From: Patescibacteria group bacterium
GTDB lineage: Bacteria > Patescibacteriota > Minisyncoccia > UBA6257 > Colwellbacteraceae
DNA length: 35,996 nucleotides
Assembly (NCBI GenBank): GCA_023380305.1
Contig: JAMCQZ010000007.1
Coordinates: 1 to 35,996 of the forward strand
Direction: 5' to 3'
Program-made: the position numbers and the translations under genes
Shown here: positions 30,823 to 34,389 of the stretch, one piece after another
How the letters are laid out: every line of letters begins with the position of its first letter
How positions within the stretch are numbered: the first letter of the stretch is position 1
The notes under the pieces: generated by a model
The model's input: the letters and a program-made list of their open reading frames with translations, nothing else
The model's database searches: none
What the model was told of the DNA's origin: nothing

Positions 30823-30844
30823 AACCGACTGAAACTAATAAACC

Positions 30845-30873
30845 AAAAAAGCGGGGATAGCCCGCTTTTTTGG
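30845..30873 (+). terminator. Rho-independent terminator after ppaC
   Basis: AAAAAAGCGGG-gatag-CCCGCTTTTTTGG. Confidence 0.88.
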
Positions 30874-31060
30874 TTGTCCACAATGGAGAGCCCAGTTTCC
30901 GGGGCCTGTGGACAAACAATCAGCCGAGTTTTTGAGACAGAACGGCCCAAACCCCGGGGCGTCCGAGAGCATTGAGTTATGCACACTTTGACCTTGGGGA
31001 GGGTGTGGAGTAAAATGGTATAAAAGTGGGGAAAAGTGGATAACCAAGGTTTTATCCAAA
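30874..31060. promoter_or_regulatory. Cluster of DnaA-box-like 9-mers
   Basis: TTGTCCACA 30874-30882; TGTGGACAA 30907-30915 (inverse); TTATGCACA 30977-30985 (exact TTATNCACA); AGTGGATAA 31035-31043 (inverse TTATCCACT); TTATCCAAA 31052-31060. Confidence 0.5.
30988..31041 (+). promoter_or_regulatory. mraZ promoter with periodic TGG operator boxes
   Basis: TTGACC (30988-30993) -17- TAAAAT (31011-31016); TGG at 30995, 31006, 31016, 31027, 31037 (spacing 11,10,11,10). Confidence 0.7.
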
Positions 31061-31066
31061 AGCCAA

Positions 31067-31498
31067 ATGTTTATCGGGGAATATCAGCACAATCTGGATA
31101 CGAAATCTCGGCTGGCCATACCGGCCAAGTTCAGAAGTCAGTTATCGGGCGGCGCCATCATCACTCGGGGATTGGATCGCTGCCTTTTTGTTTTCACCTC
31201 GAAGGATTGGGAAGTCTTGGCGCAAAAGCTTATGGCTTTGCCTTTGACCCAGGCGGACTCGCGGGCCTTTGTCCGTTTGATGCTCGCCGGAGCGGCCGAA
31301 TGCGATTTCGACACCCAGGGCCGCGTGCTCATTCCGGATTATTTGCGGAAATACGCCGATCTCAAAAAAGAGGCGGTGGTGACGGGTTTGTATAACAGGA
31401 TTGAAATATGGGATTCGGAAGTCTGGTCTGCCTACAAGAAGAGGACCGAAGGCGCTTCCGAGGAAATAGCCGAACATTTAAGGGATTTGGGGATATAG
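31067..31498 (+). CDS. mraZ: Division/cell wall cluster transcriptional repressor MraZ
   Basis: MFIGEYQHNLDTKSRLAIPAKFRSQL, ITRGLDRCLFVF, ECDFDTQGRVLIPDYLRKYADL. Confidence 0.97.
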   Translation: MFIGEYQHNLDTKSRLAIPAKFRSQLSGGAIITRGLDRCLFVFTSKDWEVLAQKLMALPLTQADSRAFVRLMLAGAAECDFDTQGRVLIPDYLRKYADLKKEAVVTGLYNRIEIWDSEVWSAYKKRTEGASEEIAEHLRDLGI

Positions 31499-31536: not shown

Positions 31537-32496
31537 GTGAAGCGATTGGTTAATTCGGAACAAAGGTCGAAAAAAATGGATTCAACCAAAAACAAAAACA
31601 CCGAAGAGCAAAGCGATTCACGGGCGTCGACACGGACGCACATTCCAGTTCTTTTAAACGAGACGATCGATGCCTTGGATCCGCAGCCAGGAGAGTTCTT
31701 CGTCGATGGCACAGCCGGAGAAGCCGGCCATATGAAAGTTATTCTTTCAAAAATCGGTCCGACCGGAAAATACCTGGCGATTGATTGGAACAAGCTAAAC
31801 GCCGAACGACTGCGCGAGGAATTCAAGGATGACCACCGGGTGAGGGTGGAAAACGTAAACTTCGCCGGGATTCCGGAACTGCTTCGCGGGGAGAAAGCCG
31901 ACGGCTTGCTCCTTGATCTCGGATTTTCATCCGGAGAACTTGAGGCCGGCCGGGGGTTCAGCTTTCAGAAGGACGAGCCCTTGCTCATGACCTACAGCGA
32001 CGAGGAAGAGCCGCTCTACAAGGTTTTGAAGAGGCTGTCCGAAAAAGAGATCTTCGAGATATTGAAGCTGACCGGCGAGCGATACAGCCGGCCGATGGCC
32101 AAAGCCATTTTCGAAGCGGAGAGGAAACATCCGGTTGAAACGACCGGGGAACTGGTGGAGGTTTTGCAAAAAGCGGTCCCCGGAAGATACGAAGCCGGAC
32201 GTCTTAATGTGGGGACAAGGGCCTTTCTCGGATTCCGGATTTACATCAACCGCGAGCTCGAGAATCTGAACCGCATCCTCGAAGCCACGACCGATGTCGT
32301 GAAGCCTGGAGGCCGGGTGGCCGTGATCACTTTCCAGTCGTTGGAAGACAAGATCGTCAAGGAGATTTTTAAAAAACAGGCCAAGGAGGGGAAAGCGGAA
32401 TTGCTTTTCAAGAAACCGCTCGGTCCGACCCTCCGGGAAATCAGGGAGAATCCCAGAAGCCGTTCAGCTAAGCTGAGAGCAATCCGCATTATTTAA
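31537..32496 (+). CDS. rsmH: 16S rRNA (cytosine1402-N4)-methyltransferase
   Basis: HIPVLLNETIDAL, FVDGTAGEAGHMKVIL, LLLDLGFSSGELE, VNVGTRAFLGFRIYINRELENL-type motifs. Start could instead be ATG 31576. Confidence 0.95.
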   Translation: MKRLVNSEQRSKKMDSTKNKNTEEQSDSRASTRTHIPVLLNETIDALDPQPGEFFVDGTAGEAGHMKVILSKIGPTGKYLAIDWNKLNAERLREEFKDDHRVRVENVNFAGIPELLRGEKADGLLLDLGFSSGELEAGRGFSFQKDEPLLMTYSDEEEPLYKVLKRLSEKEIFEILKLTGERYSRPMAKAIFEAERKHPVETTGELVEVLQKAVPGRYEAGRLNVGTRAFLGFRIYINRELENLNRILEATTDVVKPGGRVAVITFQSLEDKIVKEIFKKQAKEGKAELLFKKPLGPTLREIRENPRSRSAKLRAIRII

Positions 32497-32500
32497 AAAA

Positions 32501-32794
32501 ATGACCATCATCCAACCGAACAAAAACACGAATCCGTTACGGGGCCTAAACGCCGTTTTGGTTGTTATGCTTTTTGTTTCCGTTGTTGCGAGCATCAGCC
32601 TTTGTTCGAAAGCGGAAAGCTTCAGATTTGAGGCCAAGAAGCTGAAGAACGAAATCGACGAGGCCCAGCTCGTGAATGCCGAGCTGAAGGGCCGCATCAT
32701 GAACGCCGTCGACGCCGAGAGCATCGACAGGATCGCTTCCGAAAAAGGGTTGATTAAAGACAGAAATCCGCAATGGGTGTTCGCTTTGCAATAG
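32501..32794 (+). CDS. FtsL-like small bitopic membrane protein
   Basis: One TM helix then heptad-like segment (SFRFEAKKLKNEIDEAQLVNAELKGRI); located between rsmH and ftsI. Confidence 0.65.
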   Translation: MTIIQPNKNTNPLRGLNAVLVVMLFVSVVASISLCSKAESFRFEAKKLKNEIDEAQLVNAELKGRIMNAVDAESIDRIASEKGLIKDRNPQWVFALQ

Positions 32795-34389
32795 TCATCT
32801 TGATATTTTCCCTGGCTTATATGAGCTTGGGCCTTCGTTTTTATAACCTGCAGATAGAAAACGGCCGGCAGTATTTGGCGAAAGCCGAGGATCTGCGAGC
32901 CGGAGCCGACTTGGTCGATCCCGAAAGGGGCGACATTTTTTTTACGGACAAGAACGGCAATCTGATGCCGGCCGCCATCAAGAAGGAATATGAGAATATC
33001 GTGGCGGTTCCGAAAGACATCGAAGACGCGGATGAAGCCGCCGAAATTCTGGCTTCGGTCCTCGGAATGCCCCAAAAAGAGGTTTTGGCGAAGATCGGGA
33101 ATTCCGGAAGTTCCTACGCCATGATTTTGAAGAAAGCGCCCGAGATCGTCGCTAAAGAGGTGAAACGCTTGAAGATCAAAGGCATCCGGGTGGAAATGGC
33201 GGAAACAAGATTCTATCCGTATGGGACGCTCGCGTCGCATGTTTTGGGATTTGTGCGCGATCGCGCCGGCCAATACGGGGTAGAGGCTTTTTATAACGAA
33301 GCTCTGGTCGGGGCAACGAACGATGCCGCTTCCGGAAAATGGACGGGCGCCGAGAACGGCGAGGACATCCAACTGACCATCGAGCCGAACGTCGAATCAC
33401 AGGCGGAAAAAACGCTTGCCAAACTGGTTTCGACCTACAAAGCCGAAAAAGGGCTCGTTATTGTCGGCGATCCGAAAACAGGGGAAATCTGGGCCATGGC
33501 CGGAACGGACAATTTCGATCCGAACAACTACGGCGCCTCTCCTATGGGGAGCTATCTCAACAAATCGGTCCAGGAGGTTTACGAACCGGGTTCCATCTTC
33601 AAAATCGTTACCATGGCCGCGGGCATAGATTCCGGAAAAGTCTCGCCGCAGACGACCTATTACGACAACGGGTCGGTTGTCGTCGACGGATACACCATCG
33701 AGAACTGGGACCATAAAGCGCACGGCACGATGACCATGGCCGGCGTGATCGAAAAATCGTTGAATACCGGAAGCATCTTTGTCATGCGACAGATGGGCAA
33801 AAAGACTTTTTGGAATTACATCGAAAAATTCGGTTTCAACGAAAAAACCGGGATTGATCTTCCGGGAGAGCGGACGAGCGACACCAAGAATTTGAAAAAC
33901 GGCGGCGACGCCAATTACGCCACGGCTTCTTTCGGCAGCGGCATCGCTGTAGCGCCGATACGGCTTTGGGCTTCGATCGCCTCGATCGCCAACAAGGGCG
34001 TGATGATGCGGCCGCACGTCGTTAAAGCCGAGCCGCAGGAAATAGGCCGTTCGGTTTCCGAGGAAACCGCCAAAAAGGTGACAAATATGCTTGTGACGGC
34101 CGTCGACAACGGCAAAGTGGCGACGATCAGCGGCTACACCGTGGCCGGAAAGACCGGCACCGCTTTCATTCCAGACCTGGTCCACGGCGGATACACCGAA
34201 GACGTGATCAACACCTATATCGGCTTCGCGCCGGCCTCCGATCCGAAATTCATGGTTTTGATAAGGATGGATAGGGCTGCGGGCGCGCCGCTCGCCGGCC
34301 AGACGATCATCCCGGCCTTCCGGGAGCTCGCGGATTTTATCCTCCGTTATTACGAAGTGGCGCCGGATAGACCGGAAGCCATAAATTAG
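32773..34389 (+). CDS. ftsI: Penicillin-binding protein 2 / FtsI-type transpeptidase
   Basis: YEPGSIFKIVT (SxxK), SLNTGS (SxN), VAGKTGTAF (KTG). Confidence 0.93.
   Translation: MGVRFAIVILIFSLAYMSLGLRFYNLQIENGRQYLAKAEDLRAGADLVDPERGDIFFTDKNGNLMPAAIKKEYENIVAVPKDIEDADEAAEILASVLGMPQKEVLAKIGNSGSSYAMILKKAPEIVAKEVKRLKIKGIRVEMAETRFYPYGTLASHVLGFVRDRAGQYGVEAFYNEALVGATNDAASGKWTGAENGEDIQLTIEPNVESQAEKTLAKLVSTYKAEKGLVIVGDPKTGEIWAMAGTDNFDPNNYGASPMGSYLNKSVQEVYEPGSIFKIVTMAAGIDSGKVSPQTTYYDNGSVVVDGYTIENWDHKAHGTMTMAGVIEKSLNTGSIFVMRQMGKKTFWNYIEKFGFNEKTGIDLPGERTSDTKNLKNGGDANYATASFGSGIAVAPIRLWASIASIANKGVMMRPHVVKAEPQEIGRSVSEETAKKVTNMLVTAVDNGKVATISGYTVAGKTGTAFIPDLVHGGYTEDVINTYIGFAPASDPKFMVLIRMDRAAGAPLAGQTIIPAFRELADFILRYYEVAPDRPEAIN

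Follow-up and report, generated by a model that had tools for sequence, protein, structure and literature searches.

What reads the row of TGG triplets that lies across the mraZ promoter, where a dcw operon begins in a small Patescibacterial genome, and how many of the triplets belong to the element? The genome (544 kb in 11 contigs) has Patescibacteria/Parcubacteria metagenome-assembled genomes (MAGs) as its closest named relatives, the top two with 91-92% identity in MraZ. The window, meaning the whole stretch of DNA that was analysed, is 36 kb long (35,996 nt).

Gene context and the TGG chain

The following features frame the array.

30841-30875, listed on the minus strand: intrinsic terminator-like hairpin with a T tail; the plus strand reads GCGGGGATAGCCCGCTTTTTTGG
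30988-30993, plus strand: -35 hexamer TTGACC, invariant across three congeneric species
31011-31016, plus strand: -10 hexamer TAAAAT, lying between box 2 and box 3
31067-31498, plus strand: mraZ, 143 aa (TIGR00242, E=7.5e-48)
31576-32496, plus strand: rsmH (mraW), second gene of the dcw cluster (TIGR00006, E=1.2e-70)
32773-34389, plus strand: FtsI/PBP2-type transpeptidase gene of the dcw cluster (ncbifam SpoVD/PBP2/FtsI models, under their curated cut-offs)

The array thus lies 50 bp upstream of mraZ, the first gene of a dcw cluster, in which rsmH and then the FtsI/PBP2-type gene follow. The mraZ product has two MraZ domains and, in its translation, both DxxxR motifs of the family (DTKSR and DTQGR); by phmmer it is similar to the MraZ structures 1N0E, 9QLR, 9QLG and 9SX6, and no papers for the entries 9QLG, 9QLR and 9SX6 were found in the literature searched. 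Since a putative intrinsic terminator separates the array from the gene on its 5′ side, which encodes a Mn-dependent inorganic pyrophosphatase, mraZ probably has its own promoter. TTGACC and TAAAAT, with a 17-bp spacer, are the sole σ70-like match between 30600 and 31200. An inverted repeat (TTGTCCACA at 30874-30882 and TGTGGACAA at 30907-30915, with a 24-nt loop) also lies between the terminator and the mraZ promoter; it is not conserved in the two congeners.

The TGG triplets start at 30995, 31006, 31016, 31027 and 31037, in steps of 11, 10, 11 and 10 bp. Re-reading of the sequence reproduced exactly the positions and spacing across TTGACC-17-TAAAAT given in a preliminary description, which had proposed an extended five-box MraZ operator that might load much of a MraZ ring. 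Nowhere else in the 36-kb window, on either strand, is there a chain of at least four TGG at 10- or 11-bp steps, the runner-up having three triplets. Under a first-order Markov null, 0.3% of 36-kb one-strand sequences held a chain of at least four, and none of 300 held one of at least five; 20,000 draws of 166 nt with the local composition gave 0.04% and 0. A chance layout of TGG within a G-rich stretch might draw on the weakness of boxes 1 and 3, taken singly, against the box profile described below. However, such chains are rarely reached either in these Markov nulls or in shuffles of relatives' mraZ upstream regions, and boxes 2-5 are conserved, so that chance is effectively refuted already and its probability is negligible.

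Individual boxes and their conservation

The boxes were scored with a profile trained on relatives outside the genus and ranked among about 72,000 window positions. All lie on the plus strand.

Box 1, 30992-31001, plus strand: CCTTGGGGAG, TGG at 30995; TTGG core, score -5.9, rank 1774, which is background
Box 2, 31003-31012, plus strand: GTGTGGAGTA, TGG at 31006; GTGG 2 nt 5′ of the -10 hexamer, rank 50
Box 3, 31013-31022, plus strand: AAATGGTATA, TGG at 31016; ATGG, its T shared with the -10 hexamer, weak at rank 464
Box 4, 31024-31033, plus strand: AAGTGGGGAA, a canonical MraZ box that covers the predicted start site, rank 3 (tied second-best score)
Box 5, 31034-31043, plus strand: AAGTGGATAA, a canonical MraZ box, lying in the initially transcribed region, rank 1

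The five triplets are therefore unequal: boxes 4 and 5 are canonical and match AGTGGGAAATTGTGGGG of E. coli, while box 1 is at background level. A GTGG core is present in boxes 2, 4 and 5 and ATGG in box 3, at steps of 10, 11 and 10 bp, and the array covers the TAAAAT at 31011-31016. A 41-bp block containing boxes 2-5, TGTGGAGTAAAATGGTATAAAAGTGGGGAAAAGTGGATAAC, does not differ between the three species of the genus, whereas its flanks have diverged. Box 1 is missing in both congeners, where its spacer reads TAAAAAGGCC in place of TTGGGGAGGG. Since box 1 scores as background and is absent from the congeners, the conserved operator would consist of four rungs at 10/11/10 bp, two of them strong (4 and 5) and two weaker (2 and 3). 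Box 1 is probably a degenerate, incidental match rather than a functional conserved box.

A broader comparison drew on 123 non-identical mraZ upstream regions, taken from whole-genome relatives and from contigs of named genomes; the genome-wide statements are pattern searches. The tandem formed by boxes 4 and 5, RTGGNNWANNGTGGNNAA, is present in a single copy in its own 544-kb genome, at the mraZ site, and lies 5′ of mraZ in 45 of the 54 mraZ-bearing relatives (counted from match coordinates). The seven relatives lacking mraZ gave one match to the tandem pattern, an ATGG variant, and GTGG-GTGG in none. A GTGG-type tandem is found in 112 of the 123 distinct upstream regions.

TGG offsets were measured from this tandem in 110-112 relatives' promoters, with a median count of 1 per offset. 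Peaks fall at 0 and +10 and also at -31 (33), -21 (58), -20 (15), -11/-10 (28), +20 (49), +22 (25) and +42 (22), and boxes 1 to 5 here occupy -32, -21, -11, 0 and +10. The box 2 register thus holds TGG in 58 of 110 relatives. At the exact register of box 1 TGG occurs in nine relatives, and at -31 and -32 combined in 42 of 110. Among the 112 anchored promoters, 54 candidate -10 hexamers start 15 nt 5′ of the tandem, as TAAAAT does here. A distance of 6 nt from the start of GTGG to a TANRAT hexamer was counted 54 times, against counts near zero for neighbouring distances. Among 87 candidate -10 hexamers in relatives, 67 have GTGG at that spot, 30 (about a third) have GG right after the hexamer, the counterpart of box 3, and 25 have both. 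Across 61 genomes, a composite promoter-operator pattern (GTGGnnTAnAAT-n9-GTGG-n6-GTGG, at most one mismatch) gave 27 matches, of which 26 lie at mraZ; the control gave one.

In one relative, a second composite copy away from mraZ, GTGGAATAGAATGTAGCTCTAGTGGGAAATTATGG (one mismatch; G044:C7:128-162), is a possible second MraZ target.

Conservation, the fixed register with the -10 hexamer, one site per genome and the lack of GTGG-GTGG in genomes without mraZ together give strong support to a MraZ operator, and the element is very probably one through which MraZ represses the dcw operon that it heads, by occluding the -10 hexamer and start site. The number of rungs is a separate matter. A single functional five-rung operator that includes the TGG at 30995 would account for the contiguous 11/10/11/10 chain, which is very improbable by chance. 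It would also fit the relatives with TGG at -31/-32, and strict chains of at least five rungs, and up to eight, occur in 11 of the 123 upstream regions against 0.02% of shuffles. However, box 1 is a TTGG within a variable spacer, lost from both congeners and scoring as background, and a five-rung operator is unlikely. Comparison of relatives' upstream regions, as the preliminary description had suggested, thus upheld boxes 2-5, which are invariant within the genus, but not box 1. At least three repeats are conserved, namely four, and the fifth is not; the idea of an extended operator holds for other Patescibacteria with 5-8 rungs, but in this genus the conserved rungs number four.

Few of the 123 regions have as long a TGG ladder as the one 5′ of mraZ at locus L069 in genome G041, which runs from the -35 region into the leader.

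A smaller site has also to be considered, in which MraZ would contact boxes 4 and 5 alone and the GTGG before and GG after the -10 hexamer would be promoter features or coincidence. The profile scores of boxes 4 and 5 far exceed the rest, and the GTGG, at a constant distance of 6 nt 5′ of the -10 hexamer, could in principle be a promoter element instead of a MraZ contact. Against this, the other positions do not scatter but stay in the ladder's 10/11-bp helical register. The composite, too, is limited to mraZ but for one match in 61 genomes, although its pattern includes the tandem, so that the GTGG/-10 pair is not isolated by it. A site of two boxes is considered very unlikely, and a four-rung MraZ operator is preferred.

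Resemblance to DnaA boxes

Box 5 and its counterparts resemble DnaA boxes in sequence, and one further feature lies just upstream of the promoter.

30977-30985, plus strand: TTATGCACA, a perfect match to the DnaA-box consensus TTATNCACA, 2 bp 5′ of the -35 hexamer

Both congeners have TTATACACA where this genome has TTATGCACA, within an otherwise diverged upstream region; among the anchored promoters of relatives, the position is not conserved beyond the genus. The boxes may thus also, or instead, be DnaA boxes that couple replication initiation to the division operon. Besides the site at 30977-30985, this would be consistent with the second strong box, which is TGTGNATAA, the DnaA consensus, in 45 of 112 relatives. 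Further copies of TGTGNATAA stand at +20, +30 and +40 in relatives, with downstream steps of 12 and 20 bp in the same family. It would also be consistent with the enrichment of TTATCCACA genome-wide across the order (16 copies against 1 for the reversed-pattern control in this genome). Against it, box 5 here is TTATCCACT, one mismatch from the consensus, and the 10-bp phasing and the GTGGGGAA of the first box suit MraZ. In many other families the distal rungs are TGGGGATAA, off the DnaA consensus, although TTATCCACA is still enriched in those same genomes. Since the distal rungs read TGGGGATAA where TTATCCACA stays an enriched word, MraZ is favoured as the main reader, and recognition of the boxes by DnaA appears quite unlikely.

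Two observations concern the DnaA-like word itself. TTATCCACA is strongly over-represented relative to the reversed-pattern control in nearly all Patescibacterial relatives among the 61 genomes. Three perfect same-strand copies at 12- and 20-bp steps lie in the mraZ leaders of several relatives, at G010:C11:28224-28264, G020:C45:27454-27494, G024:C1:17380-17420 and G029:C3:20282-20322. Perfect DnaA boxes in tandem, 10 bp apart (TGTGGATAANTGTGGATAA), were looked for as well, and were not found in relatives save for a single one-mismatch match away from mraZ.

A more speculative possibility, and an improbable one, is that the Patescibacterial dcw promoter is a dual switch, a long, helically phased MraZ ladder of up to 5-8 rungs that encloses the -10 hexamer and whose rungs have been co-opted as consensus DnaA boxes in some lineages. 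Were this so, DnaA and MraZ would compete for the same DNA, and division-gene expression would be tied to replication initiation in cells with very few regulators. The literature searched yielded no paper on MraZ from Patescibacteria, nor any linking MraZ to DnaA boxes.

Proposed action of MraZ and comparison with known operators

For a MraZ operator the following mode of action is proposed, by analogy with characterized systems. MraZ, the product of the operon's first gene, would bind the GTGG-type direct repeats, which recur once per helical turn along a single face of the DNA. It would thereby cover the 3′ end of the spacer, the -10 hexamer and about 20 bp beyond the predicted start. Bound MraZ would block RNA polymerase at its own promoter, giving negative autoregulation of the operon. 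From what is known in E. coli, Mollicutes and B. cenocepacia, MraZ would be expected to occupy the strong boxes 4 and 5 first, after which adjacent protomers within one and the same ring would fill boxes 3 and 2 cooperatively.

Both in E. coli and in M. genitalium, MraZ is a repressor of its own operon (PMC8475190). It binds as an octamer (PMC5282649). The array 5′ of mraZ in E. coli K-12, read directly from its sequence, is GTGGGAAATTGTGGGGCAAAGTGG. As in E. coli, GTGG direct repeats exactly 10 bp apart lie just 5′ of mraZ, and GTGGGAAATTGTGGGG resembles GTGGGGAAAAGTGGAT. Unlike the three rungs of E. coli, the conserved ladder here adds one rung on each side of the -10 hexamer (boxes 2 and 3). 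For Mollicutes, the site is (AAAGTGKN3)3 (Fisunov et al. 2016, as cited in PMC5282649 and PMC8475190). As far as those two papers describe it, the two share an A-rich flank with a GTG core, a 10-bp period and a single mraZ site per genome (M. genitalium), and they differ in that the Mollicutes site has three repeats, whereas here two strong and two weaker rungs follow at 10/11-bp steps. In Burkholderia cenocepacia, MraZ binds the PmraBc fragment, in which four repeats of 7 nt, spaced by 3 nt, lie 3′ of the -10 hexamer and span the start site (PMC7761207). The arrangement described here is comparable, except that two rungs enclose the -10 hexamer.

The element is thus of an ordinary, well-conserved kind of control element, somewhat longer than the textbook examples. 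The MraZ operator of E. coli, Mollicutes and Burkholderia appears to have been retained in the streamlined and mostly uncultured Patescibacteria, where the ladder is longer and its register with the -10 hexamer is fixed. The natural arrays of two to eight rungs should help to address the question of how a closed MraZ ring contacts multiple phased boxes.
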